From NCBI GenBank assembly GCA_019348095.1, contig JAHWKC010000036.1, positions 1 through 12,917 of the forward strand: a DNA stretch of 12,917 bases, written 5' to 3'. Each line of letters begins with the position of its first letter. Positions within the stretch are counted from its first letter, which is position 1. Of the stretch, positions 2 through 12,917 are shown in pieces. A model generated the notes under the pieces. The model did no database searches. It saw only the letters and a program-made list of their open reading frames with translations, and was not told the DNA's origin. Both the position numbers and the translations under genes were made by a program. Origin of the DNA: Pseudomonadota bacterium. Its GTDB lineage: Bacteria; Pseudomonadota; Gammaproteobacteria; Xanthomonadales; Xanthomonadaceae.

Positions 2-1360
2 ATGTCGATCAAGGCCGTCAACTCGCTGTCGCACTACACCGACTGGACCGTCGGGCACGTGCATTCGGGCGCGCTCGGCTGGGTCGGCCTGATCTCGTTC
101 GCCGCCGTCTACTTCCTGGTGCCGAAGCTGTGGGGCCGCCAGCGGCTCTATTCGGTGCGCTTCGTCAGCGTCCACGTGTGGCTCGCCACGCTCGGCATCG
201 TCGTCTACGCCGCGGTCATGTGGGTGTCGGGCATCATGCAGGGCCTGATGTGGCGCGAGTACGACGACCAGGGCTTCCTGGTCTACTCCTTCGCCGAAAC
301 CGTTGCGGCCATGTTCCCCTACTACGTCATGCGCACGCTGGGCGGCCTTCTCTACCTCGCCGGCGCGCTCATCATGGCCTTCAACGTCACCATGACCATC
401 CTCGGTTATCAGCGCCAGGAAGAGCCGGTCGGCGGCGCCGCCCCGGCGCTGGGTGCCGACGAGCAGCCCGTCGAGGCGCACACCGTGGACGACCTCGACG
501 TGCTGCGCGGCGAGCGCGAGGGCTTCCAGGTCGCCGTCCGCAACGACACCGGCGGTGCGCTGCGCCTCGATGCGCGCATCGTCAAGGACGGCGGCCTCGC
601 CGCCGCGGCCGGCACGGTCGACTTCGAGCTGCAAGCGGCCGTCGTTGACCTGCACCGGAAACAGGTTGATCGCAATCCCGACCTCCTGCCCGCCGACCCG
701 GGGCCAGCGCGCGGCGTCGTGGCAGGCGCGCTGCAGGATCCAGCGCCCGACATCGGCGGCGACCGGGCTGCTGGAAAGCGCCTCGATGAACATCACCGGC
801 GACAGCAGCCCGCGTTGCGGGTGGCGCCAACGCAACAGCGCCTCGGCGCCGACCGTGCGGCCGGTGCGCAGATCGATCTGCGGCTGGTAGTGCAGCTCGA
901 ACTCGCCACAGGCATGCGCGCGGCGCAGTTCCATGTCGAGCTGGCGGCGGTCGAGCACCTGCTGCCGCATGTCCGGGTCGAACAGGCACACCTGGCGCCC
1001 GCCGACCGCCTTGGCCCGGTACAGCGCCAGATCTGCGCGCGAGATCAGGTCGTCGCCGTCGGTGCCGGGCTCGTGCACGGCCAGGCCGATGCTGGCGTCG
1101 AGGTGGATGGTGTGGCCGTCGATCAAAAACGGCTGCGAGATAGCGGCCAGCAGCGGCTGCAGTTGCACCGACAGCAACGGACCGGACAGCTCCGCCGGGT
1201 TGGGCAGCAGCATCGCGAACTCGTTGCCGCCGAAGCGCGCGAGCACCGCCTCGCTTGGCAGCATGGCCTGCATGCGGGTGGCGGTCTCGCGCAGCACCGC
1301 ATCGCCGACGGTGTGGCCCAGGGTGTCGTTGAGGCTCTTGAAGTTGTCGAGCTTCAGTAG
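2..1360 (+). CDS. ccoN: C-terminal part of cbb3 cytochrome c oxidase subunit I (CcoN), no stop at its natural end
   Basis: The first ~135 residues are the last third of CcoN, the heme-copper catalytic subunit of cbb3 oxidase, an inner-membrane high-affinity terminal oxidase. The motif [17 protein letters not shown] is visible. The HVH pair (residues 19 and 21 here) corresponds to the family's heme b3 and heme b ligands. It is followed by hydrophobic helices and the family signatures LVPKLWG, GLMWRE and YVMRTLGG. The ATG at 2 is an internal methionine; the gene begins outside the window. Recognisable CcoN ends near base 440-480. Codon bias (G at position 1, G/C at position 3) stays in this frame to about 636, in a stretch I cannot assign. 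The frame then stays open to a stop at 1360, but from ~640 it is only the antisense of the EAL/GGDEF gene. The real coding part is therefore roughly 2-636. The gene looks truncated by a rearrangement or an assembly join. Confidence 0.72.
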
Positions 1361-2371
1361 CGCCACTGCAAGTTTATGCCGGGCGGCATGCGGATCGTCG
1401 GTGTGCAGCCGTGCGGTCAATGCCTCGACCAGGGCGTTGCGGTTGGGCAGCCCGGTCAGCGTGTCGTACAGCGCGATCTTGCGCAGGTGCGCCTGCTGGC
1501 GCAGATGCTCGGTGATGTCGCGCAGGATCAGTGCGACGCCCTGGCCGTCGCTGACCCGCCAGGCGCATCGCGCTGCCTCCAGCGTGCGCGTCTCGCCGTC
1601 ACTCCCGGCGGTGCGCAGGTGAAGCGGCTCATCACGCTGCGCCGGTTGCCCGGCGGCCGGTTGCAGCCATGCGGCCGCGGCGGCGGGATCGTCCTGCAGG
1701 TGGGGCGGGAACAATAGCTCCATCGGTTGCCCGCGCATCGCGCGCGCACCGCTGCCGAACAACGCCTGCGCCGCACGGTTGACGAACACCACATCGCCAC
1801 GCGCATCGGTCACCACCACCGCGCTGAAGTCGGCCTGCATGATCTGCGCGGCGATGCGGTTGCGCCGCTGTAATTGATGGCGCTCGAGCAGGCGCGCGGC
1901 GAGCCGGCCCAGCCGCTCGAGCGTTTCGGTGGCATGGGTCGCATCGGCCCGCGGCGCGGTGTCGGCCACGCCGAGCACGCCCAGGCATTGTCCGTCGCCG
2001 GCGAACAGCGCCAGGCCCAGGCAGAAGCGCACGCCGACCTGGCGCACCATCGGATCTTCCCGGAAGCGCGCGTCCTCGCCCGCGTCGGTGATCGCCAGCA
2101 GCGGCAGCTCGGGCCCGGGCGCACGGTACAGCGCGCTGCCGGCGATGACGGCCTCGCCCGGCCCGCATCGCGCAATTATCCGGAGGGCTTCGCCATGGCC
2201 GGCGGCCAGGATCGCGATCGGCGTCTCGCATAGTCTTGCGGCCAGCGAAACCACATCGGCAAATTCTTCGCCATCCAGCGCCGCATCACTCAGCAGGTCG
2301 TCGCCGATCCGGTTCCACGGCGCGCCCAGATGACCTGCAATGCGGGGCTGAAACGGGTTGTGCAGGCTCAT
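640..2371 (-). CDS. GAF-PAS-GGDEF-EAL cyclic-di-GMP signalling protein, truncated inside EAL
   Basis: Starts at ATG 2371 with an AAGGA ribosome site (2378-2382) 6 bases upstream. There are no membrane segments, so it should be cytoplasmic. Domains by residue: GAF-like sensor ~35-165; PAS ~172-290 ([17 protein letters not shown], ending ILRDITEH); GGDEF ~300-460 (opening [11 protein letters not shown]); EAL from ~485 ([29 protein letters not shown]). The cyclase signature is GGNEF (residues 381-385), so the metal-binding acidic residue is replaced by Asn, and no RxxD inhibitory site precedes it. Cyclase activity is therefore doubtful. The EAL domain is recognisable only to ~residue 580 and lacks the family's later catalytic Glu and DDFGTG-type residues. 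The frame stays open to the left window edge, but left of ~640 it is antisense of the ccoN reading frame. A sigma-28-type promoter at 2489-2515 places the gene in the motility regulon. Phosphodiesterase activity is unlikely unless the left end is a misassembly. Confidence 0.82.
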
Positions 2372-2488
2372 GGAGCGTCCTTGGGGCGTGCTGCCAGCCA
2401 TCGTGGCGGGAGGTGCTTCATTGCGTGGGCGACGCTGCCGGGCAGGAGATAGGGTGGAGTGAAATAGGGCTCGGCGTCTCCTCTGTCG

Positions 2489-2515
2489 TTAACGGCGCGC
2501 GCGGCCGGGACTTGA
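2489..2515 (-). promoter_or_regulatory. Sigma-28 (FliA)-type promoter for the GGDEF/EAL gene
   Basis: On the minus strand: TCAAGTCC (2515-2508), 11 bases, then GCCGTTAA (2496-2489). The family consensus is TAAAGTTT-N11-GCCGATAA, with TCAAG common in pseudomonad-type promoters. The predicted start of transcription is near 2482, giving a leader of ~110 bases to ATG 2371. The -35 lies inside a 7-bp inverted repeat (2503-2509 with 2517-2523). Confidence 0.7.
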
Positions 2516-2544
2516 GCCCGGCCAGCGCCACGGGCCATCGAACC

Positions 2545-2570
2545 GCCCACGGGCGCGATCGCCCTCCTAC
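2545..2570 (-). repeat. Palindromic repeat, GTAGGAG type
   Basis: Read on the minus strand this begins GTAGGAGGGCG and contains GGGCG-CGAT-CGCCC. It resembles the repeats at 6211-6235, 6374-6397 and 12574-12606. It lies just upstream of the sigma-28 promoter. Confidence 0.5.
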
Positions 2571-2615
2571 GGATCCCCGATCACGGTCACGGTCACGGCC
2601 GCTGACCGCGCATCC

Positions 2616-2638
2616 GTAGAGCTGAGCTGCTCCGCTGC
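2616..2638 (+). repeat. GTAG-headed REP palindrome (copy facing right)
   Basis: GTAGAGCTGAGCTGCTCCGC followed by TGC. It has the same head and near-palindromic body as the copies at 6409-6431 and 6446-6469. This is the layout of the GTAG REP family described in Stenotrophomonas. It pairs with an inverted partner at 2661-2677. Confidence 0.6.
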
Positions 2639-2660
2639 CCGCCCAGCCGCGCAATAGCAG

Positions 2661-2677
2661 GCGAGCAAGCTCGGCTG
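2661..2677 (-). repeat. Partial REP palindrome, inverted partner
   Basis: On the minus strand CAGCCGAGCTTGCTCGC, matching the body of the 6409-6431 copy but without the GTAG head. It forms an inverted pair with 2616-2638, separated by 22 bases. Confidence 0.5.
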
Positions 2678-2702
2678 AATCCATGCGCCTGGACGCCAGA
2701 CG

Positions 2703-2730
2703 ACGAACGCGCCCCGGAGGACGCGTTCGT
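2703..2730 (-). terminator. Terminator-like hairpin after MCP1
   Basis: Perfect 9-bp stem ACGAACGCG / CGCGTTCGT with a 10-base loop, starting ~30 bases past the MCP1 stop codon. No U-run follows on the minus strand, so it may be a weak terminator or an mRNA-stabilising hairpin. Confidence 0.45.
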
Positions 2731-2760
2731 GAACCAACCCTTCGGTGCCGGCGCCGCGGC

Positions 2761-5490
2761 CTAAAACTCCTGCCAATGCTGGTCGCCGCCGGTGCCTGCG
2801 CCGCTGCCGCCGGCGGCCTTGCGTGCAGGTATGGGCTTGGCCGCCTGCGGTGCAGCGGAGCGGGGTGCGGCTGCTGCGCGCCGTGCCGCGGCTGCGCCTA
2901 ACTCGATTACCGGCTCGCTCCTGGCTGCCGGTGGCTGCGCGCTGCGCGAGGTGGGCGTGGCGGACGCTGCGGCGTTGGTTTCCAGGTTCAGCCGGAATGC
3001 GGCGACGGTCTGCACCAGATGGCCGGACTGCTGCTCCAGGCTGCGCGCCGCGGCGGAGGCCTCCTCGACCAGCGCGGCGTTCTGCTGGGTGCCCTCGTCC
3101 ATCTGCAGCACCGCCTGGTTGATCTGCTCGATGCCGGTGCTCTGCTCCTGGGAGGCGGCGCTGATGTCGGCGATGATGTCGGTCACCCGCTTCACGCTGG
3201 TGACGATCTCGCCCATGGTCTTGCCGGCCTGGTCGACCAGCGTGCTGCCTTCCTCGACCTTGCCGACCGAGTCGTCGATCAGCTGCTTGATCTCCTTGGC
3301 CGCACCGGCCGAACGCTGCGCCAGCGAGCGCACCTCGGAGGCGACCACCGCGAAGCCGCGGCCCTGCTCGCCGGCGCGGGCCGCTTCCACCGCAGCATTG
3401 AGCGCCAGGATGTTGGTCTGGAAGGCGATGCCGTCGATCACGCTGATGATGTCGACGATCTTGCGCGAGGAGGCGTTGATGGCGCTCATGGTGTCGACCA
3501 CGCGGCCGACCACCTGGCCGCCTTGGGATGCGACATCGCCCGCGCCGATCGCGAGCTGGTTGGCCTGGCGCGCGTTGTCGGCGTTCTGGCGGACGGTGGA
3601 GGTCAGCTGTTCCATCGAGGAGGCGGTTTCCTCCAGCGATGCGGCCTGCTGCTCGGTGCGCTGCGACAGGTCGCTGTTGCCGGCCGAGATTTCGCCGGCG
3701 GCCGCGCTGATCGCGTCGCTGCCCTGGCGGATCTGGCCGACCACGGAAGCCAGCTGGCGCACGGTGCCGTTGGCGTTGGCTGCCAGCTCGCCGAACTGGC
3801 CCGGCAGGTTGGCGTCGGCCTCTTGTGTGAGGTCGCCCTCGGCCACGGCGGCCAGCAGGGTGCCGACCTCGTTCAGGCCGCGGTCGGCGCTGGTCATCAG
3901 CTCGTTGAGGGACTCGATCATCTCGCGGTAGACGAACTCGAAGCGCTCGGCCTGGCCACGGCGGCTGAAGTCGCCGGCCACGGCGGCATCGACCAGTCCC
4001 TTGATCTCGGTATTGACCGCCAGCATGCGCGACTTGACGTCATCGACCGCCTCGGTGATGCGCGCCTTCTTGCCGGGCAGCCGCTCGATGTCCTCCGACA
4101 GGTCGCCGCGGCCGTAGGCATCGACCATCGCGATGACTCGGGTCTGCAGGTCGATGTGCGAGGCCACCAGGGTGTTGATCTCGTCGGCCATGACGCCGAA
4201 GGACCCGGGGAATGCCTTGGCGTCGAGCCGCTCGTCGACCTCGCCGGCCTGGTGCGCGTCGAACATCGCGCGCTGCGCCTGCGCGAAGCCGCGCAGGCTG
4301 CCCACCGCTCGGTCCAGGCTGACCGCGATGTCGCGCATCTCGTCACGGCTGCTGATGCTGACGCGCTGCGGGAACTCGCCGGCGGCGATCGATTCGGCCG
4401 CCTGCTTGATCGCTTGCAGCGATGTGCGCGTGCTGCGGGTGAAGCCCAGGAACAGGTAGGCGGTCAGCAGCAGCACCATGGCGATGAACACCCAGGTCAG
4501 CGCCAACTGGCGCTCCAACGCGCCGATCTCGGCATCGGTCGCGGCGAACAGCGCATTGTTCGCCCCGACCAGCGCGGCGGCCAGCGCCAGGCGGGTGGCC
4601 TCCTCGCGCGCAGCCATCGCCGGGACCGGCATGTCCGGGAAATCGGCATCGAGGATCCGTTCCTGCATCACCTGGTCCTGCTTGGCGACCGCCGCGATCG
4701 CGCTGTCCAGCCGCGTGCCCAGGCTTTCGGCCAGCGACGGCATCGCCTTCTCGGCGTTGCCCGCCTCGAGCTGCGCACGGCGGCGCAGGAAGTCCTGCAT
4801 GTTGCGGGTCACCGCGATGGCGGTGCGGTCATCGACCCAGATTGCGCCGTCGCCGAGCACGCGCATGGCAACCGCCGACTGCTGCGAGGTGTACTCGGTC
4901 AGCGTCGGTAGCCACTCGGTGGCGATCTGGCCGGTGTAGAGGATCTCCGCCCGGTCGGCCCGCGACAGTCCGCTGAGGTCGGCCACCACGCCTATCACCT
5001 GGCGCAACTGGCGCACCGCCTCGTTGCGCTCCTCGACCAGCGCGTTCGCATCGGCGCCGCGGGTAGCTTCGGTCCAGGCCGACCGCGCCTCGGCGAACGC
5101 AGCCTTCAGGGTGGCCGAATCGGGCAGGTTGGCCTGCGCCCACTGCTCGACCCGGTCCAGCTCGCGGCTGGCTTCGGCCGATGCATCGCTGAGCGCCTGC
5201 GGCGGTACCGCATCACCCGAGGCGTTGCGCGTGGCCAGCTGCCGGTATTTCTGCATCGCCAGCATCGAGCGGTGCAGCCCGCCGAGCGGGTCGACCACAT
5301 CGCGCTGCATGCGCGCGGTTTGCAGATCGCTGCTGGCGCGGGTGATCAGCATGCCGCCGAGCACGCCGCAGGTCAGCATGAACGACGCGCCGATCACCAG
5401 CGCCTTCTGGCCGAAGCGCAGGCGCGCCATCAGGCGGGAGGCCGGCGCGAGTACGCGGTCAAGCAATGAGGAGGGCGGGCGGTTGGACAT
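2761..5490 (-). CDS. Methyl-accepting chemotaxis protein (MCP1), helical periplasmic sensor, C-terminal HWQEF
   Basis: Inner-membrane chemoreceptor of 909 residues that passes a periplasmic signal to CheA through CheW. TM1 is ~28-50 and TM2 ~330-350. Between them is a ~280-residue, probably all-helical sensor that I cannot assign to a named ligand-binding family. A HAMP domain (~353-410) and further HAMP-like repeats to ~600 follow ([31 protein letters not shown]). The MCP signalling domain is ~610-850, with the conserved hairpin tip [20 protein letters not shown] at ~685-705. A ~74-residue Ala/Pro-rich tail ends HWQEF, the W-x-x-F form of the CheR-tethering pentapeptide. Start ATG 5490 is chosen because GAGG lies 5 bases upstream and a sigma-28 promoter sits at 5532-5558; the ATG at 5625 lies upstream of that promoter. 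The cytoplasmic half closely matches MCP2 while the sensor does not, which suggests duplication with divergence or swapping of the input domain. Confidence 0.95.
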
Positions 5491-5495
5491 GGGGA

Positions 5496-5499
5496 CCTC
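5496..5499 (-). promoter_or_regulatory. Ribosome binding site deciding the MCP1 start
   Basis: GAGG on the minus strand, 5 bases before ATG 5490. It supports this start over the in-frame ATG at 5625. Confidence 0.7.
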
Positions 5500-5531
5500 G
5501 GCAAAGGGATACGCAACTGTGTCTGCCCCCG

Positions 5532-5558
5532 GCAACGGCGGCCGCGCCGGAAACTTTA
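5532..5558 (-). promoter_or_regulatory. Sigma-28 (FliA) promoter for MCP1
   Basis: Minus strand TAAAGTTT (5558-5551), 11 bases, GCCGTTGC (5539-5532). The -35 is an exact match to the classical FliA -35 with the classical spacing; the -10 keeps GCCG. The predicted transcription start is near 5525, giving a ~35-base leader to ATG 5490. Confidence 0.8.
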
Positions 5559-5685
5559 GGACGGCGCGGCCGGTAGCACCGGGGTAGCCCGGTGCGCCAT
5601 TACGCCCGGCGAGCGGAAACCGCAAATTTGCCCCGCTGCACCCAAAAGACCGGTTCGATATGCGACGGCGCGCACACGAGCGCGC

Positions 5686-5712
5686 TAAAGAACGTGCATC
5701 CGCGGCCGTTGA
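5686..5712 (+). promoter_or_regulatory. Sigma-28 (FliA)-type promoter for the TonB-domain gene
   Basis: Plus strand TAAAGAAC (5686-5693), 11 bases, GCCGTTGA (5705-5712). It is divergent from the MCP1 promoter, with 127 bases between the two -35 boxes. The predicted start is near 5719, giving a ~41-base leader to ATG 5760. Confidence 0.68.
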
Positions 5713-5759
5713 AATGGATGCAGACCGCAGCCAGACCGTTCATACCGGAGGAGCACCCC

Positions 5760-6065
5760 ATGTCCCGAACATCCGTCGCCGCCGTCGCATTCCTGGCGCT
5801 GGCACTCGCGATGCCGGCCCACGCCAGCCTCACCCCGACCAAGCGGGTGGACCCGGTGTTTCCGCCGGAAGCCGCGCGCAGCGGTACCGAAGGGTTCGTC
5901 GAAGTGGAGTTCACCGTCGGCGCCGACGGCAAGGTCGAGAGCGTCTCGGTGGTCAATGCCAAACCGTCACGCACCTTCGAATCGGCCGCCGTGCGTGCGG
6001 TGAAGCAGTGGGAGTTCGCCCCCGGCGGCGGGCGCGGCAAGGTACGGCTGGATTTCACGCTCTGA
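5760..6065 (+). CDS. Exported single-domain TonB C-terminal family protein
   Basis: 101 residues. Start ATG 5760 has GGAGGAG (5747-5753) 6 bases upstream and lies downstream of a sigma-28-type promoter; the in-frame ATG at 5592 lies before that promoter. The N-terminus is a signal peptide (hydrophobic AAVAFLALALAMPAHA, AxA cleavage after residue 22). The ~79-residue mature part is a TonB C-terminal domain: VDPVFPPEAARSGTEGFVEV, FTVGADGKVESVSVVNAKPS, FESAAVRAVKQWEFAPG. True TonB energy transducers have an N-terminal membrane anchor and a long Pro-rich spacer (usually 200 or more residues); both are absent. If cleaved as predicted, the protein is free in the periplasm and cannot transduce energy from ExbBD in the usual way. 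It is monocistronic, divergent from MCP1, and closed by a strong terminator. A role in motility or envelope is inferred only from the promoter; its partner is unknown. Confidence 0.88.
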   Translation: MSRTSVAAVAFLALALAMPAHASLTPTKRVDPVFPPEAARSGTEGFVEVEFTVGADGKVESVSVVNAKPSRTFESAAVRAVKQWEFAPGGGRGKVRLDFTL

Positions 6066-6100
6066 GCGTGCCGGGCTCCCTCCAGGGGTTTCGAAATGAA

Positions 6101-6127
6101 AACGCGCCGGCAGGGCGCGTTTTTTTT
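6101..6127 (+). terminator. Rho-independent terminator of the TonB-domain gene
   Basis: 8-bp stem AACGCGCC / GGCGCGTT with a 5-base loop followed by a run of eight T, 36 bases past the stop codon. An A-run on the left side may give some activity in the other direction. Confidence 0.9.
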
Positions 6128-6180
6128 GCCCGAAAAGTCGAAAACGCCGCGCTGTGCGCTCCTGCGGTGGCGCACGATCT

Positions 6181-6204
6181 GTCGAGCCGAGCTTGCTCGG
6201 CTGC
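6181..6204 (+). repeat. REP palindrome (GTCGAGC head)
   Basis: GTCGAGCCGAGCTTGCTCGG then CTGC. Its body is identical to the 6409-6431 copy, with one change in the GTAG head. Confidence 0.6.
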
Positions 6205-6210
6205 CTCCGC

Positions 6211-6235
6211 TAGGAGCGCCCCCACGGGCGCGATT
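6211..6235 (+). repeat. Palindromic repeat, TAGGAGCGCCC type
   Basis: Arms GCGCCC / GGGCGC (6216-6221 with 6226-6231) after a TAGGAG head. An inverted copy lies at 6374-6397. Confidence 0.55.
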
Positions 6236-6373
6236 GGTATCCACATTCCAGCTGTGCCCTTCGCCAAACCTGCGCCTCCGGCTCGTACGCAGGTCATCAC
6301 GCTCAACCTGCCCGGTGCCGAGCAGTTGGCGCGCATTGGAGGGCGGGCGGTCCGCTGAAGGACATGCGACCGT

Positions 6374-6397
6374 CGCGCCCGTGGGGCGCTCCTGCAG
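6374..6397 (-). repeat. Palindromic repeat, inverted copy of 6211-6235
   Basis: On the minus strand CTGCAGGAGCGCCCCACGGG then CGCG, matching the 6211 copy almost base for base. Confidence 0.55.
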
Positions 6398-6408
6398 GGG
6401 CGTGATTC

Positions 6409-6431
6409 GTAGAGCCGAGCTTGCTCGGCTG
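6409..6431 (+). repeat. GTAG-headed REP palindrome
   Basis: GTAGAGCCGAGCTTGCTCGG then CTG. It faces an inverted copy at 6446-6469 across 14 bases, an arrangement like a REP doublet. Confidence 0.65.
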
Positions 6432-6445
6432 GGGGTGCGATCGAG

Positions 6446-6469
6446 GCAGCGGAGCAAGCTCCGCTCTAC
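6446..6469 (-). repeat. GTAG-headed REP palindrome, inverted
   Basis: On the minus strand GTAGAGCGGAGCTTGCTCCG then CTGC. Arm bases differ from 6409-6431 but are compensated (CCGAGC..GCTCGG versus CGGAGC..GCTCCG), so the hairpin is kept. Confidence 0.65.
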
Positions 6470-6494
6470 GCCGGTCCGGTACTTGGCAGCTCGC

Positions 6495-6531
6495 AAAAAG
6501 CCGCGGGCAGGGGTATGAGCCCGGCCCGCGG
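6495..6531 (-). terminator. Rho-independent terminator of the chemotaxis operon (after MCP2)
   Basis: On the minus strand, stem CCGCGGGC / GCCCGCGG (6531-6524 with 6508-6501) and a 15-base loop followed by C and five T. It starts 23 bases past the MCP2 stop codon. Confidence 0.85.
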
Positions 6532-6554
6532 TCCGATCGGTCAGCGGATCAATT

Positions 6555-8828
6555 TCAGAACTCCCGCCACTCCTGCTCGCCGCCGGCGTGGGCCAGTGCC
6601 GGCTTGGCTGCGCGCTGCGGCGGCGTAGTTTTCGGGGCAGGACGCTGGGGTGGTTCGCGGCGGGGGCTGCTGGCACCGATTTCGCTGACCCTTGCGGTGA
6701 CCTGGGCCGCGACCGGCGAGGCGCGGCCGCTGTCGAGGCGGAACGCCGCCACGGCCTGGCTGAGTTCGTGGGCCTGCGACTCCAGGCTGCGGGCGGCGGC
6801 ATTGGCTTCCTCGACCAGGGCGGCGTTCTGCTGGGTGGTCTCGTCCATCTGCAGCACGGTCTGGTTGACCTGCTCGATGCCGGAGCTCTGTTCGGCCGAG
6901 GCGGCGCTGATATCGGCCATGATGTCGGTCACCCGCTTCACGCCGGTGACGATGTCCTGCATGGTCTTGCCGGCCCGGTCGACCAGCGCGGTGCCCTGTT
7001 CGACCTTTTCCACCGAGTTGCCGATCAGGGCCTTGATCTCCTTGGCCGCGGCGGCCGAGCGTTGCGCCAGGCTGCGCACCTCGGATGCGACCACCGCGAA
7101 ACCGCGGCCCTGTTCGCCGGCGCGCGCGGCCTCGACAGCGGCGTTGAGCGCGAGGATGTTGGTCTGGAACGCGATGCCATCGATGACGCTGATGATCTCG
7201 ACGATCTGCTTGGACGATGCGTCGATCTCGCCCATGGTCGTGACCACGTCGCCGACCACGCCGCCGCCGCTGGTGGCGACCTCCGATGCGCTGATCGCCA
7301 GCTGGTTGGCCTGGCGCGCGTTCTCGGCGTTCTGGCGCACGGTGCTGGTCAGCTCCTCCATCGAGGAGGCGGTTTCCTCCAGCGAGGCGGCCTGCTGCTC
7401 GGTGCGCGTGGACAGGTCGGTGTTGCCGGCGGAGATCTCGCGCGCGGCGGTGTTGATGGTCTCGGTGCCTTCGCGGATCTGGCGCACGATCTCGCTCAGC
7501 TTCTGCACGGTGCGGTTGGCATCGCCGGCGACTTCGCCGAACTTGCCGTTGAGCTGGGCGGTGATGCGACGGCTGAGGTCGCCCTCGGCCATTGCCGACA
7601 GCAGGGTACCGACCTCGTCTAGGCCGGAGTCGGCGGTCTGCATCAGCTGGTTGAGCGAGCCGATCATCTCGCGGTAGGCGAACTCGAAGCGGGCGGTGTC
7701 GCCGCGCTGGGCGAAGTCGCCGGCCACGGCGGCATCGACCAGGCGCTTGAGTTCTGCGTTGACCCCGAGCATGCCGTATTTGACCCCGTCGATGGCCTCG
7801 GTGATCTCGGCCTTCTTGCCGGGCATGCGGTCGATGTCGGCCGACAGGTCGCCCTTGGCGTAGCGCGAGACCACTTCGACCACGTGGCGGCTGACCGCGA
7901 TGTGCGAGTCGACCAGCTCGTTGATCGCCTGCGCCATCGCGCCGTAGGCGCCGGGGAAACTGGCGCTGTCGATGCGGTGGTCGGTATCGCCGGCTTCGTG
8001 GCGTTCGGCCATCTGCAACTGGGCGGTGTTGAAGCTGCGCAACTGCTGCTGCAGCTGGCGCATGTCGGCCAGCAGCGAAGGGCCGGAGGACTGCACCCGC
8101 ACTTCGCGGTCGAGCTCGCCGGCGCCGATGCGGCGCACGACTTCGGCGGCGTAGGCCGGCTCGCCACCGAGCTGGCGCATCAGGCTGCGGCGGATCAGCA
8201 GGCCCATCCAGACGGCTATGACCACGGCGAACAGATCGCCGAGCACACTGAGCAGGGTGCTGCGCGATTCAATCGCTTTCGCTTGTGCACCGCGTTCGGC
8301 GAGCAGGTCCCGTTCTGTCTTGTCGAATTCGGCGATCAGCGCCCGCGTGCGGTCGGAGATCTGTTTGCCCGGTCCATCGTCGAAGTTCACGAGCAGCGCC
8401 TCCATGGTCTGCTCGCCGCCGTCGACTGCACGGCGCTGGTCGATCAGGCCTTGTTCGTATGCCACGAACTGCTGCTGCAGCTCGCGCACCTGGGCAAGGC
8501 GGTCCTGCTGGACGGGGTTGTCGGAGGTCAGCCGTTTCGCCTCTGCCCAGGCGGCGTCGAAATCGCGCTGACCGTCGATGAAAGGCTCCAGATAGCTGTC
8601 CTTGCCGGTAAGCACGAAGCCGCGCGTGCTCGACGCCATGTGGACCATGTCCTGCAACAGCTGCTCGCCTTCCAGCAGTACCCGGAAGGTGTGCTCGTTG
8701 GCGTCGGACGCCACCGTGAGCTGCCTCTGCCCGGCCATGTTGATGCCGCTGATCAGCAGCATGAGCACGATGATTGCGGAAAAGCCGACTGCGAGGCGGC
8801 CTGTGACGCTGAGCTTGTCGAAAGACAT
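6555..8828 (-). CDS. Methyl-accepting chemotaxis protein (MCP2) with CHASE3 sensor, C-terminal EWREF
   Basis: 757-residue inner-membrane chemoreceptor, last gene of the STAS-cheY-cheA-cheW operon. TM1 is ~12-31. The periplasmic CHASE3-type helical domain is ~35-175 ([17 protein letters not shown] is its hallmark). TM2 is ~189-211 and the first HAMP ~212-265. More HAMP-like modules run to ~470 ([31 protein letters not shown]). The MCP signalling domain is ~480-700, with hairpin tip [20 protein letters not shown] near 555-575. A ~58-residue Pro/Ala-rich tail ends EWREF, a W-x-x-F pentapeptide of the CheR-docking type. Two in-frame ATGs are 6 bases apart. AGAGGA (8835-8840) directly abuts the first (8834) and is 6 bases from the second (8828), so 8828 is chosen. 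The start lies 59 bases after the CheW stop, suggesting co-transcription. The ligand is unknown. Confidence 0.95.
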
Positions 8829-8834
8829 GCGCAT

Positions 8835-8840
8835 TCCTCT
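8835..8840 (-). promoter_or_regulatory. Ribosome binding site choosing between two MCP2 ATGs
   Basis: AGAGGA touches ATG 8834 (no usable spacing) but sits 6 bases before ATG 8828. Confidence 0.65.
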
Positions 8841-8887
8841 GTTCGGATGGAGCAGATGGGCGACGGACGCTTGCCGCCATGGACACG

Positions 8888-9379
8888 CTAGGCGGCTTTT
8901 GCGACCAGCCCCATGTCGGCATCGGTCATGAGCTTCTCGATGTCGATCAGGATCAGCATGCGTTCGTCCAGCGTGCCGATGCCGGTCAGGAACTGTCGGT
9001 CGATGGTGGCGCCGAGTTCCGGCACGTCGCGGATCTGCTCGCGGCCCAGCTGCACCACGTCGGACACGCTGTCGACCACCATGCCGACCACGCGGTCGGC
9101 GACGTTGAGCACGATCATCACCGTCAGCGCGTTGTATTCGGCCCTGGCCAGGCGGAACTTCAGCCGCATGTCGATCACCGGCACGATGATGCCGCGCAGG
9201 TTGATCACGCCCTTGATGTAGTCCGGTGCGTCAGGCAGGCGGGTGACCGCGTCGTAGCCGCGGATCTCCTGCACCTTGAGGATCTCGACGCCGTACTCCT
9301 CCTCACCGAGCGCGAACGTGAGGAACTCGTGGGTCGCGAGGTCGGTGCGAGTGGCGGCGCTGGGGAGCGGATGGTTCAT
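8888..9379 (-). CDS. cheW: Chemotaxis adaptor protein CheW
   Basis: 163-residue cytoplasmic adaptor that couples receptors to the P5 domain of CheA. The single CheW domain spans ~18-155: [20 protein letters not shown], then [20 protein letters not shown], the hallmark [18 protein letters not shown], and the late [10 protein letters not shown] and [19 protein letters not shown] segments. Start ATG 9379 is chosen because AGGAA (9387-9391) is 7 bases upstream. The open frame continues to an ATG at 9571, but that extension reads through an inverted-repeat element and is not CheW-like. The gene lies 201 bases downstream of cheA, a gap filled mostly by that element, and 59 bases before MCP2. No promoter was found in the gap, so it probably depends on read-through from cheA. 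Confidence 0.95.
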
Positions 9380-9434
9380 GGCATTGTTCCTGTGACGCGG
9401 ATGCGGTGTGTGGTGGGCAGCTGATATCTCAGCC

Positions 9435-9544
9435 CGTCGTTCCCGCGAAGGTGGGGATCCAGTGATTTGCGTGCGCAACAGCAACGTCGCTGGGTAGCCG
9501 CCTACGGCGGCACGATGAGGCAACCCGCGTTCGCGGGAATGACG
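9435..9544. repeat. 110-bp element with terminal inverted repeats between cheA and cheW
   Basis: Left end CGTCGTTCCCGCGAA and right end TTCGCGGGAATGACG are 14/15 inverted copies of each other. Inside are a GCCGCC-TAC-GGCGGC hairpin and GGGGATCCAGTG next to the left arm. This is the look of the small non-coding CGTCATTCCCGCGAA repeats scattered in many proteobacteria. It has no gene and is too small to encode a transposase. It would fold as a long hairpin in the operon mRNA. Confidence 0.7.
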
Positions 9545-9580
9545 AGCGAAGAAAAGCGGCAGTGTTTCCAAGAGCGTCCA

Positions 9581-11575
9581 TCACGCAGCCACCGGCAGGC
9601 GCTCGCTTGGCTGGCCGAGGCCGCCGGCGTCGACGATCAGTGCCACGCGGCCGTCGCCGAGGATGGTCGCGCCCGACACACCCGGGATGCGGCGGTAGTT
9701 GGTTTCCAGGTTCTTGACCACGACCTGCTGCTGCCCGAGCAGTTCGTCGACCTCCAGCGCCAGCTTGCGGCCGCTGCTTTCGACCACCACCGCGATCGGC
9801 ACCGCGCCGGACGCGACGCCTTCCGGCGCCGGCAGGCGGTACTGCTCGCGCAGGTTGACCAGCGGCAGGTAGTCGTCGCGCACGCGCAGCACGCGGGTGT
9901 CGCCGGCGATCGTGCGGACCTCGCCGGCGCCCAGCTGCAGCGATTCAAGAACCATGTTCAGCGGCAGGATGAAGACCTGGTCGCCGACCGCGACCGACAT
10001 TCCATCCAGGATCGCCAGGGTCAGCGGCAGTCGGATCGATATGGTGGTGCCGACGCCCTTGGTGCTGCGGATCTCGACCTGGCCACCGAGCGCGACGATG
10101 TTGCTCTTGACCACGTCCATGCCGACGCCGCGGCCTGAGAGGTCGGTCAGCGCCTCGGCGGTGGAGAAGCCGGGGTGGAACACCAGGTCCCAGACCTGCG
10201 CGTCCGTCGGGTTTTCCGGCACCGGCAGGTCGCGCTCGGCGGCCTTGCGCAGGATGCGTTCGCGGTCAAGGCCTTTGCCGTCGTCGCCGACCTCGATGAT
10301 GATATGGCCGCCCTGGTGCGCGGCGGTCATGGTGATGGTGCCGGTCTCGTCCTTGCCCGCGGCACGGCGCTCGGCCGGCATCTCCAGACCGTGGTCGATC
10401 GCATTGCGCATCAGGTGCACCAGCGGGTCGACGATCTTCTCGATCACACCCTTGTCGAGCTCGGTCGCCTCGCCCTGGGTCTTCAGCCGCACCTTCTTCT
10501 CCAGGCGGGTGGCCAGGTCGCGGACCATGCGCGGGAAGCGGCTGAAGGCGAACTCCACCGGCAGCATGCGCACGCTCATCACCGCTTCCTGCAGGTCGCG
10601 GGTGTTGCGGTCGAGCTGGCCCAGTCCGGTCAGCAAGGCCTCGTTGGCGACCGGGTCGAGCGACTCGGAGCGCTGGCGCAGCATCGCCTGGGTGATGACC
10701 AGCTCGCCGACCAGGTTGATCAGCGCGTCAACCTTGGCCACGGCGACGCGGATCGAGTTGTCGCCATCGCTGGCGCGGCGAGCCGGCGGTGCGGCCGGAT
10801 CGGCTGGATTGCCGACAGGTGCGCCGTCGCTGCGTGCCAGCTCGGTCCTGGCCTGGCGCAGTTCCTCGATCGACAGCTCACACTGGTCCTCGACCCAGGC
10901 GAAGGCCTCGTCGATCGCGGCGCGCGGCACGCTGCCGGGCAGCATCAGGTCCCAGGCCAGGTGTGCCTCGAACGGATCGAGTTCGGTGAACGGCGGCAGC
11001 CGGTCGTCCAGGCAGGTGGTGCTGAGCTCGCCATGGCTGCCGAGCTCGCGCAGGATCCGCAGCGGGTCGTTGCCGCTCATGAACAGCGACGGCTCCGGGC
11101 GGAAGGCGATGCGCCAGTTGTCCGGCGCGGTGGGGGCGGACGGGTCGGACGCAGCCGCAGCCGGCGCCGCCGCGTCGGCGGCGAGCAGGCGGTCGAGCGC
11201 GGCGCGCGCCTGCGCGAGCGCCTCGCGGTCGGCGGCCTCGTCGCGCCCGGCGCTGCCGTACTCGGCCACCGACAACAGGCCGCGCAGCACGTCGACCGAG
11301 GCCAGCAACGCGCCGGTCGCGCCGGCGTCGAGCACGCGTCGGCCGCTGCGGGCTTCGTCGAGCAGGGTCTCCAGCAGGTGGGTCAGGTCGGTGACCGCGC
11401 CGAAGCCGAAGGTTGCCGCGCCGCCCTTGATCGAATGCGCCGCACGGAAGATCACGTTGACCGTGTCCGGGTCGGCGCTGCCGGAGGCTTCCAGCCCGAG
11501 CAGGCTGGCTTCCATCGCATCCAGACCCTCACGGCTTTCCTCGAAGAACGCGGCGTGGAACTGGGTGATGTCCAT
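9581..11575 (-). CDS. cheA: Chemotaxis histidine kinase CheA
   Basis: 664-residue cytoplasmic kinase that phosphorylates CheY under receptor/CheW control. The P1 Hpt domain (1-~105) has the phospho-acceptor His47 in AAHSIKGGAATFGF. A conserved middle region at ~150-240 (WRIAFRPEPSLFMSGNDPLR ... FAWVEDQCELSI) takes the place of a classical P2. P3 dimerisation is ~270-345 (VDALINLVGELVITQAML). The P4 ATPase is ~346-525: N box LVHLMRNAIDHGLE, G1 VGDDGKGLD near 430, G2 GRGVGMDVV near 478, and TTISIRLPLTLAILDG. The CheW-like P5 runs ~530-655 (QVFILPLNMVLESL ... VVVKNLETNYRRIPGVSGAT). All catalytic motifs are present, so an active kinase is expected. The ATG at 11575 follows the CheY stop codon after only 3 bases, indicating tight translational coupling. 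No in-frame damage was seen. Confidence 0.97.
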   Translation of the reverse strand: MDITQFHAAFFEESREGLDAMEASLLGLEASGSADPDTVNVIFRAAHSIKGGAATFGFGAVTDLTHLLETLLDEARSGRRVLDAGATGALLASVDVLRGLLSVAEYGSAGRDEAADREALAQARAALDRLLAADAAAPAAAASDPSAPTAPDNWRIAFRPEPSLFMSGNDPLRILRELGSHGELSTTCLDDRLPPFTELDPFEAHLAWDLMLPGSVPRAAIDEAFAWVEDQCELSIEELRQARTELARSDGAPVGNPADPAAPPARRASDGDNSIRVAVAKVDALINLVGELVITQAMLRQRSESLDPVANEALLTGLGQLDRNTRDLQEAVMSVRMLPVEFAFSRFPRMVRDLATRLEKKVRLKTQGEATELDKGVIEKIVDPLVHLMRNAIDHGLEMPAERRAAGKDETGTITMTAAHQGGHIIIEVGDDGKGLDRERILRKAAERDLPVPENPTDAQVWDLVFHPGFSTAEALTDLSGRGVGMDVVKSNIVALGGQVEIRSTKGVGTTISIRLPLTLAILDGMSVAVGDQVFILPLNMVLESLQLGAGEVRTIAGDTRVLRVRDDYLPLVNLREQYRLPAPEGVASGAVPIAVVVESSGRKLALEVDELLGQQQVVVKNLETNYRRIPGVSGATILGDGRVALIVDAGGLGQPSERLPVAA

Positions 11576-11578
11576 GGC

Positions 11579-11944
11579 TCAGCCGAGCACCTTGCGAACC
11601 GTCGAGAGCAGTTGCTCCGGGTCGAACGGCTTGACCAGCCAGCCGGTGGCGCCGGCGGCCTTGCCCTCGGATTTCTTGTCGCCGCCCGATTCGGTGGTCA
11701 GCATCAGCAGCGGGGTGAATTTGTAGTCCGGCAGCTGGCGCAGCTGTCGGATCAGCTCGATGCCGTCCATGCGCGGCATGTTGACGTCGGTGACCACCGC
11801 ATCGAACCGCGCGGTCCTGGCGATCTCGAGCGCCGCCTGGCCGTCCTCGGCTTCGCGCACCTCGTAGCCGCCCGAGGACAATGCGAAGGCGACCATCTGT
11901 CGCATGGAAGTCGAGTCGTCGACGATCAGTAGCTGTGCGCTCAC
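11579..11944 (-). CDS. cheY: Single-domain response regulator CheY
   Basis: 121-residue receiver-only protein; when phosphorylated by CheA it should act on the flagellar motor switch or another output. Key residues are present: acidic pair D9/D10 (LLIVDDSTSMRQ), phospho-acceptor D53 (VVTDVNMPRMDG), T83 (MLTTES) and K105 (LVKPFD). A GTG start at 11944 is chosen because GGAGA (11951-11955) lies 6 bases upstream and the receiver fold begins directly after it. The upstream in-frame ATG at 12091 would force translation through two copies of a tandem repeat with Cys-rich, non-receiver sequence. GTG plus the preceding repeats may keep expression modest. The gene is the second in the operon, 3 bases before cheA and 189 bases after the STAS gene. 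Which effector it controls cannot be told from sequence alone. Confidence 0.95.
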   Translation of the reverse strand: MSAQLLIVDDSTSMRQMVAFALSSGGYEVREAEDGQAALEIARTARFDAVVTDVNMPRMDGIELIRQLRQLPDYKFTPLLMLTTESGGDKKSEGKAAGATGWLVKPFDPEQLLSTVRKVLG

Positions 11945-11950
11945 GCAGAA

Positions 11951-11955
11951 TCTCC
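11951..11955 (-). promoter_or_regulatory. Ribosome binding site for the cheY GTG start
   Basis: GGAGA, 6 bases before GTG 11944, lying just beyond the end of the tandem repeat. Confidence 0.7.
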
Positions 11956-11957
11956 AT

Positions 11958-12108
11958 GAGATTGCGCACTCGACGCAGTCGAGTGCCACGAGTTTCCTTC
12001 CTCCGCAGCGCGGGGGAAGGCAAGGATGGGGGCACGAGATTGCGCACTCGACGCAGTCGAGTGCCACGGGTTTCCTTCCCCTGCAGCGCAAAGGAAGGCG
12101 GGGATGGG
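11958..12108. repeat. Two tandem copies of a ~73-bp double-hairpin repeat upstream of cheY
   Basis: Copies begin at 11958 and 12036 (period 78). Each holds a perfect 9-bp palindrome GCACTCGAC-GCA-GTCGAGTGC (11966-11986 and 12044-12064) and a second imperfect hairpin built on CTTCC(N)5-AGC-(N)5GGAAG. The first palindrome is identical in both copies, while the second varies with a partly kept stem. It lies in the STAS-cheY gap, so it would be transcribed in the operon mRNA. Confidence 0.85.
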
Positions 12109-12133
12109 GATGAAGGGGAGCGGGCCAGTCATG

Positions 12134-12427
12134 TCAGGCCTGGCCCGGTTCGGCTGGCGCGTCCAGGCCCAGGCTTGCGGCCAGCGCAAGATGTCGCGCG
12201 GCATCGGCCAGGATCGGGGAGGCGAGGGTGACGAGGGTGCTGCGCCCGGCGCTGGCGCGGTCGCGCACGAATGCATGCAGCAACTGCAAGCCGGCGGCGT
12301 GGACCCGTTCGACCCGGTCGGCGGTCAGGGTCAGCGGTTCCTCATCGTCCAGGTGCGGCAACAGCGCCGCCTGCAGTGCGGCGACATGCTCGATGCCAAG
12401 GTCGGATTGCAGGGACAGCTGGGTCAT
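12134..12427 (-). CDS. STAS-domain protein (anti-sigma-factor-antagonist-like), first gene of the chemotaxis operon
   Basis: 97-residue cytoplasmic protein with a STAS-type fold: LGIEHVAALQAALLPHL (helix 1), LTLTADRVERVHAAGLQLLH (core strand and helix) and STLVTLASPILADAARHLAL. In SpoIIAA-like members the DSxG motif carries the phosphorylated Ser; here the corresponding positions are H43-A44-A45-G46, so it cannot be switched by phosphorylation there. It is therefore probably a constitutive binding or scaffold partner (inference). Start ATG 12427 is chosen over the in-frame TTG at 12460, because the sigma-28-type promoter at 12461-12487 predicts transcription beginning near 12454, downstream of that TTG. 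No clear Shine-Dalgarno precedes either start. It is followed by the tandem repeat and cheY. STAS genes occur beside cheY/cheA in several gammaproteobacterial clusters, but the partner is not evident here. Confidence 0.83.
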   Translation of the reverse strand: MTQLSLQSDLGIEHVAALQAALLPHLDDEEPLTLTADRVERVHAAGLQLLHAFVRDRASAGRSTLVTLASPILADAARHLALAASLGLDAPAEPGQA

Positions 12428-12917
12428 GGCGGATGGGGCGGCCGTTGAGGTTCGTGTCAATTAACGGCGGCGGCGGCGGCGACTTGAGCGGGCGGCACTG
12501 CACCGGGCTCTGGCGGAGCGGCCATGGCCCGACCGCGCATGCGCAGCAGACCATCGCGCCCATCGGCGCCGTTGTAGGAGCGGGCCATGCCCGCGACTGG
12601 AATGACGCGGCCGCGCCGGTCGCGCCGCCGAGCGACAGCAGGGCGCGCATGCGCTCGATCACGTGCTCGGGGTACCGGCCCCGGTCGTAGAAGCACAGCG
12701 CGCGCGCCCGCGGCCTGCTTTGCAGGACGCGGTCGAGCCCGGCGTCGTACTCGGTCAGGCTCACCCCGCCGGCCTCGCGGAGCGCGGAGCTGGCCTGGTG
12801 GGTCATCCGGAAGCCGGGGTAGCCCGCGCTGAACGTCGCGTCGATCTGCTGGAGGATCATCTGCTCGACCTGCTCGACGGGGCTGCGCAGGGCCTCCTGC
12901 GTGACGTCGGCGGGCAC
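12342..12917 (-). CDS. MEDS-like sensory protein, 3' part, C-terminus probably altered
   Basis: The gene enters from the right edge; the GTG at 12917 is probably internal, so the N-terminus is outside. Residues ~12-103 of the visible part resemble the MEDS/DcmR-type sensory domain, including FSAGYPGFRMTHQASSALRE, LTEYDAGLDRVL and the near-diagnostic ALCFYDRGRYPEHVIERM. This assignment rests on motif recognition alone. After LLSLGG (~12635) the frame runs through a palindromic repeat (12574-12606) and low-complexity sequence, through the operon promoter, and 86 bases into the STAS gene before stopping at 12342. That tail is not a credible domain. In the next frame the same region ends at a TGA at 12457-12459, so a frameshift linked to the repeat may have changed the C-terminus. 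It is likely a separate unit from the sigma-28 operon, with a possible role as a small sensor linked to signalling. Confidence 0.55.
   Translation of the reverse strand: MPADVTQEALRSPVEQVEQMILQQIDATFSAGYPGFRMTHQASSALREAGGVSLTEYDAGLDRVLQSRPRARALCFYDRGRYPEHVIERMRALLSLGGATGAAASFQSRAWPAPTTAPMGAMVCCACAVGPWPLRQSPVQCRPLKSPPPPPLIDTNLNGRPIRHDPAVPAIRPWHRACRRTAGGAVAAPGR
12461..12487 (-). promoter_or_regulatory. Sigma-28 (FliA)-type promoter for the STAS-cheY-cheA-cheW-mcp2 operon
   Basis: Minus strand TCAAGTCG (12487-12480), 11 bases, GCCGTTAA (12468-12461). Both boxes nearly match those before the GGDEF/EAL gene (7/8 and 8/8), while the spacer is a different GCC repeat. The predicted start is near 12454, ~27 bases before ATG 12427. 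Confidence 0.72.
12574..12606 (+). repeat. GTAGGAGCGGGC-type palindromic repeat inside the MEDS-like reading frame
   Basis: GTAGGAGCGGGCCATGCCCG followed by CGACTGGAATGAC, with a perfect GCGGGC-CAT-GCCCGC stem. It resembles common extragenic repeats in Pseudomonas/Xanthomonas relatives, and such repeats rarely sit inside genes. Here it coincides with the loss of recognisable MEDS sequence. Confidence 0.65.

Follow-up and report, generated by a model that had tools for sequence, protein, structure and literature searches.

The window considered here, which is the whole stretch of 12,917 nucleotides that was analyzed, contains four short sites of like sequence and like spacing, each ahead of a different gene. 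Do these sites mark a single motility regulon under the control of the flagellar sigma factor σ28 (FliA), and which genes would such a regulon include? The consensus sequence for FliA-controlled promoters in Escherichia coli is TAAAG-N14-GCCGATAA, and at the hook–basal body checkpoint export of FlgM frees the late flagellar promoters.

A chemotaxis cluster and its four sites

The window is contig 299 of a genome of 2.71 Mb that is distributed over 480 contigs and is 72% complete. As judged by Pfam matches, it is a chemotaxis cluster consisting of a GGDEF–EAL gene, MCP1, a small TonB gene on the opposite strand, MCP2, cheW, cheA, cheY, and a STAS gene, followed by a MEDS-domain gene. Among named loci, those closest in the small TonB protein belong to Lysobacter, Luteimonas, Vulcaniibacterium, and Thermomonas. 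The genes (assigned with Pfam) and the predicted promoters are as follows.

650..2401, minus strand: GAF–PAS–GGDEF–EAL gene (c-di-GMP enzyme), 3′ end missing, with EAL ending at profile position 91 of 236
2489..2515, minus strand: predicted σ28 promoter before the GGDEF–EAL gene, TCAAGTCC-N11-GCCGTTAA
2764..5490, minus strand: MCP1, chemoreceptor with HAMP and MCPsignal domains
5532..5558, minus strand: predicted σ28 promoter of MCP1, TAAAGTTT-N11-GCCGTTGC
5686..5712, plus strand: predicted σ28 promoter of the small TonB gene, TAAAGAAC-N11-GCCGTTGA
5760..6065 (including the stop codon), plus strand: small secreted TonB-domain protein of 101 amino acids (TonB_C)
6558..8828, minus strand: MCP2, CHASE3 chemoreceptor
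8891..9379, minus strand: CheW
9584..11575, minus strand: CheA
11582..11944, minus strand: CheY-type response regulator
12137..12427, minus strand: STAS-domain protein, gene 1 of the che operon
12461..12487, minus strand: predicted σ28 promoter of STAS–cheY–cheA–cheW–MCP2, TCAAGTCG-N11-GCCGTTAA

Positions 1 to 646 contain the end of a gene for cytochrome oxidase subunit I (COX1 domain, Pfam). Because this gene end runs head-on into the GGDEF–EAL gene, whose EAL domain is cut at about position 646, the truncation is probably an assembly join. At the other end of the window, a gene for a MEDS (DcmR sensory) domain (12459–12917) lies upstream of STAS; nine relatives that share the cluster have a cheW-like gene in this position and no MEDS match. 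Repeats are also present: a tandem pair of 77-bp units, 88% alike, is found between cheY and STAS (11955–12109), and further repeat elements are located at 6169–6470 and 9427–9552.

Inspection of the sequence confirmed the coordinates and strands of all four sites. The original prediction placed each of them in a non-coding gap before a gene. The sites do lie 33–117 bp ahead of the starts (measured from the end of the −10 element, 41 bp for MCP1, 47 bp for small TonB, 33 bp for STAS, and 87 or 117 bp for the GGDEF–EAL gene, which has two possible starts), but the fourth site (12461–12487) falls within an open frame, 12342–12917, that extends past the MEDS-domain gene. The MEDS homology ends at residue 91, near position 12644. 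Meanwhile, the −10 sequence GCCGTT(A/G)A that had been ascribed to all four sites fits three of them, the second site having C as its eighth −10 base. MCP2 has no strict σ28 site of its own (the only matches in the window are the four sites) and is probably read from the STAS promoter.

The spacing of the two elements

That four sites should share one spacing had been held to be hard to obtain by chance, and the controls bear this out. When the distance between TMAAG and GCCGWT was set at each value from 8 to 20, the window contained four matches at 14 and none at the other twelve spacings. In 300 first-order Markov shuffles of the window, TMAAG-N14-GCCGTT was found on average 0.003 times and at most once per shuffle. 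A control with 16 loci, several of them already known to hold a match at spacing 14, yielded 46 matches at that spacing and six at others, with zero or one for scrambled −10 elements. Because the outcome was thus partly known beforehand, the control was repeated on loci chosen by protein alone. In relatives, 33 loci picked by the small TonB protein (362,602 bp) contained 91 matches at spacing 14 and six at the twelve others combined, and 29 loci picked by the STAS protein held 27 and none, respectively; 13 loci of distant TonB proteins had none at 14 and four elsewhere. A TAAAG-like −35 element and a GCCGATAA-like −10 element are therefore found together with a peak at 14 bp. The named loci overlap the other genome set and three genomes contribute two loci each, so the locus sets are not independent, and Fisher values in this analysis ignore kinship among genomes.

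Conservation ahead of orthologous genes

The σ28 sites lie close upstream of late flagellar and chemotaxis genes, and three of the four are kept at orthologous positions in relatives. The STAS promoter is present in 28 of 30 STAS loci, these being the best 30 of 65 matched genomes; it is missing in L209 and L213. On the MCP1 side, 29 of the 33 close loci have the site and none of the 13 distant ones do; three of the four close loci that are without it are unlinked copies of small TonB. The site on the small TonB side was found in 31 of the 33 close loci (the exceptions being L224 and L238) and, again, in none of the 13 distant loci. In an overlapping set, the divergent pair of sites was present in all 23 close loci with scores of at least 11 of 12.5, two of them (L119 and L130) having one −35 mismatch on the small TonB side. 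Weaker TonB matches had no upstream site (0/7).

The promoter before the GGDEF–EAL gene is, as read from sequence, the weakest of the four with respect to conservation. A like site precedes the orthologue in one of five relatives (L174, and not L169, L171, L172, or L176), and no orthologue was found within reach in the other four of nine syntenic loci.

Sites in genomes with and without FliA

We asked how the sites are distributed with respect to FliA, which was found over the curated cut-off (FliA+) in 16 of 40 relatives. Within the family, sites are present where FliA is encoded and nearly missing where it is absent: 13 FliA+ genomes contained 72 sites (31 GCCGTTR and 41 GCCGATR), whereas ten FliA− genomes contained two (one of each form). 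Reversed-pattern controls gave 52 matches in each of the two groups. For GCCGTTR on its own, the 31 matches in the FliA+ genomes are fewer than the 35 of the reversed control, and so for this form the argument is carried only by the comparison with FliA− members of the family, in which there was one match against 28 for the control.

The association is weaker in the rest of the order. Sixteen genomes outside the family, which were excluded from the family contrast, included three FliA+ genomes with 22 matches (controls, 25) and 13 FliA− genomes with 24 matches (controls, 94). In view of these 24, a match alone proves nothing. Among the FliA− genomes outside the family with the most matches is G038, which is in 460 contigs and belongs to the genus of a FliA+ genome (G028). 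The STAS gene tracks FliA more widely than does small TonB, with 63 of 65 carriers being FliA+.

Other sites in the same genome and the missing fliA gene

A scan of the whole genome gave 17 matches to the bare pattern and 11 to its reversal, and six and four, respectively, for the GCCGATR form. These numbers are close to their controls, and the genome-wide count was dropped as proof of enrichment. The bare pattern barely exceeds its control; the signal lies in position and conservation. Eight of the 17 matches stand before genes: the four window sites and, with Pfam, sites ahead of flgM, flagellin, an MCP, and a response regulator. The other nine, as judged by eye, are inside genes. Some of the eight are also overlapped by long open frames of the kind that arise by chance where GC content is so high. 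One of the six GCCGATR matches, GCCGATA, precedes a paralogue of small TonB, one precedes a frame without a Pfam match, one is in a flgH-like gene, and three are apparently intragenic. A σ28-like site is located at the same place, in the flgH-like gene shortly before flgI, in L266 (about 1500, minus strand) and L179 (about 408, plus strand), where we take the genes to be flgH and flgI from their sequences. This internal site may be a promoter within the gene or a by-product of conserved codons.

In this assembly, which is incomplete (72%), no FliA scored over the cut-off; there is a single weak match (E 5.7e-5), region-4-like, to the end of the FliA model. The case for FliA dependence accordingly comes from relatives. 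Another contig (G000:C146) carries the flagellar cheA and begins within a cheY-like frame. It aligns at 77% with a relative's locus (L168), and from the point where it stops about 134 bp would remain to the FliA match in that locus. Because the contig stops just there, fliA is probably absent from the assembly by virtue of lying in an assembly gap. A position just beyond the right end of the window, as in relatives, is uncertain, the gene found there being the MEDS gene that has no match in the nine relatives.

Base preferences of the −35 and −10 elements

The original prediction took the local −10 element to be GCCGTT. This proved to be an over-reading: A and T both occur as the fifth −10 base at orthologous promoters, and the GCCGATA before the small TonB paralogue is in the same genome, and a GCCGTT-only element was therefore rejected. 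The GCCGTT sites in the window, only four in number, represent a wider GCCGWT(R) element. At STAS promoters the fifth −10 base is T in 21 and A in seven of 28 cases; at MCP1 promoters it is A in 22 and T in eight of 30, and at small TonB promoters A in 27 and T in five of 32. Because the pattern used for selection admits nothing but A or T at the fifth −10 base, and nothing but A or C as the second base of the −35 element, the counts tell how promoters share the allowed bases and not that other bases are absent. Likewise, the seventh −10 base is A in 28/28 STAS and G in 29/30 MCP1 sites, and the second −35 base is C in 27/28 STAS and A in 30/30 MCP1 sites. Bases other than these two may be allowed at the second −35 position, as the variant TGAAG gave seven matches in the 16-locus control. 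The sub-type of a given promoter is retained from genus to genus, which suggests a tuning of promoter strength and not a changed sigma factor.

A small TonB-domain protein

The small TonB protein has 101 residues and consists of a signal peptide (recognized by eye) that runs straight into a TonB C-terminal domain. The domain was identified by PF03544, by TIGR01352, and by fold: an AlphaFold2 model with a mean pLDDT of 77.5 had solved TonB C-terminal domains as its best Foldseek matches. Reading by eye, we found in this protein of about 100 amino acids neither the N-terminal membrane anchor of TonB, which contacts ExbB–ExbD, nor the long proline-rich spacer. An alignment of 22 small TonB sequences contains 32 invariant columns.

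Close relatives of the protein (E below 1e-30) were found in 23 of 149 genomes of the family, of which 21 were FliA+. A larger sample of 396 family genomes (completeness of 95% or more, our own genome excepted; many genomes common to both samples) contained 254 FliA+ genomes and 36 carriers, 34 of them FliA+; in this survey part of the candidates were scored per genome (12 and 7). The two carriers that are not FliA+ are our own genome and a draft (G081). In genera having small TonB, all FliA+ genomes carry the gene (21/21 and 34/34 in the two samples). Six FliA− genomes from five of these genera (G002, G147, G005, G053, G144, and G148) had no small TonB gene or a distant TonB match only. Since 220 of the 254 FliA+ genomes are without the gene, its addition to the regulon is specific to certain lineages.

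Copies of the gene that are not linked to the cluster (L165, L177, and L178) have their own σ28 site, which starts 63–78 bp before the chosen start codon, and second tandem copies in L115 and L121 also have their own upstream site. The neighbors of the unlinked copies, inspected by eye, have no common theme.

Discussion

As predicted from sequence, the four sites are very probably promoters for RNA polymerase containing FliA, and the proposal of one σ28 motility regulon is upheld by the fixed spacing, the conservation at orthologous genes, the difference within the family between genomes with and without FliA, and the sites at flagellin and flgM in the same genome. It is the spacing, the association with FliA, the conserved place, and the like sites in the same genome that identify the sigma factor as σ28. 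Spacing, conservation, the FliA contrast, and gene context can be read directly; from them we infer transcription from the sites and its dependence on FliA. Counted against this reading are the lack of a FliA over the cut-off in the assembly, the low genome-wide excess, the shortfall of GCCGTTR relative to its control, the matches in FliA− genomes outside the family, the finding of the GGDEF–EAL site in one of five relatives, and the presence of small TonB in only 34 of 254 FliA+ genomes.

Could TMAAG and GCCGTT instead have come to stand 14 bp apart by accident in GC-rich DNA? The genome-wide count of 17 versus 11 and the 24 matches in the 13 FliA− genomes outside the family are what such an account would draw on, but the spacing controls that peak at 14, the near absence of the pattern from shuffles of the window and from FliA− genomes of the family, and its retention before orthologous genes make chance scarcely credible. 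A different account would have σ28 itself changed in this lineage so as to prefer GCCGTTRA in place of GCCGATAA. Relatives mostly have GCCGAT, with A prevailing at both the MCP1 and the small TonB promoters, GCCGATA precedes the paralogue in the same genome, and the FliA of one relative gives a good alignment with the solved structure 6pmi, which we take to be FliA of E. coli. A changed sigma factor is hence very improbable, even though GCCGTT is found at the four window sites and at the flagellin and flgM sites of this genome and T is the commoner base at STAS promoters.

It might also be supposed that the small TonB gene is a bystander, the site serving something else and the protein being an ordinary component of iron uptake. 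The missing N-terminal part of TonB, the presence of a separate upstream site at each of the unlinked and tandem copies examined, and the restriction of the gene to FliA+ genomes in 34 of 36 cases render this unlikely, against which are to be set a C-terminal domain that is standard for TonB in both sequence and fold and the many FliA+ genomes that do without the gene.

How would a σ28 regulon of this kind work? A −35 element T(A/C)AAG and a −10 element GCCG(A/T)T(R), 14 bp apart, would be used by FliA-containing polymerase to transcribe the c-di-GMP enzyme gene, MCP1, the STAS–cheY–cheA–cheW–MCP2 unit, and, divergently to MCP1, small TonB. By analogy, the promoters would become active upon export of the anti-sigma factor FlgM by the hook–basal body; flgM itself has a promoter of the same kind in this genome. 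The sites resemble the late FliA promoters of γ-proteobacteria in their two elements, in spacing, and in the classes of genes that they precede (flagellin, flgM, MCP, and che). They differ from that consensus in that the second −35 base is often C, as at nearly all STAS promoters, and in that either A or T stands fifth in the −10 element, the favored base varying from promoter to promoter. The case illustrates that an incomplete assembly, even one lacking the sigma gene, can still reveal a motility regulon.

Finally, we consider what the small TonB-domain protein might do. In fold and sequence family it is like the TonB C-terminal domain (solved as 1u07, 2gsk, and 6fip), but it differs from the TonB transducer in being without anchor and spacer, in its small size, in having an apparently cleavable signal peptide, and in its σ28 promoter. 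TonB3 of Pseudomonas aeruginosa, which is reportedly necessary for twitching motility, is likewise a TonB-like protein linked to motility; TonB3, however, concerns type IV pili, whereas the protein described here is linked to the flagellar sigma factor. The likeliest role, although a guess and a doubtful one, is that of a periplasmic binding partner made along with the chemotaxis machinery. Its docking site could be the TonB box of outer-membrane receptors or the periplasmic face of the motor or of a receptor. We suggest, tentatively, that flagellated Lysobacter, Luteimonas, Thermomonas, and Vulcaniibacterium may have gained a new late flagellar gene, encoding a soluble periplasmic TonB C-terminal domain under σ28 control, a gene that in many cases diverges from a chemoreceptor promoter and in some has been duplicated as a unit with its own promoter. 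The protein is, in any case, a candidate for a new part of the flagellar program. If the suggestion is true, swimming or chemotaxis would be linked through this protein to the status of outer-membrane receptors that depend on TonB, or else to the cell wall surrounding the motor.
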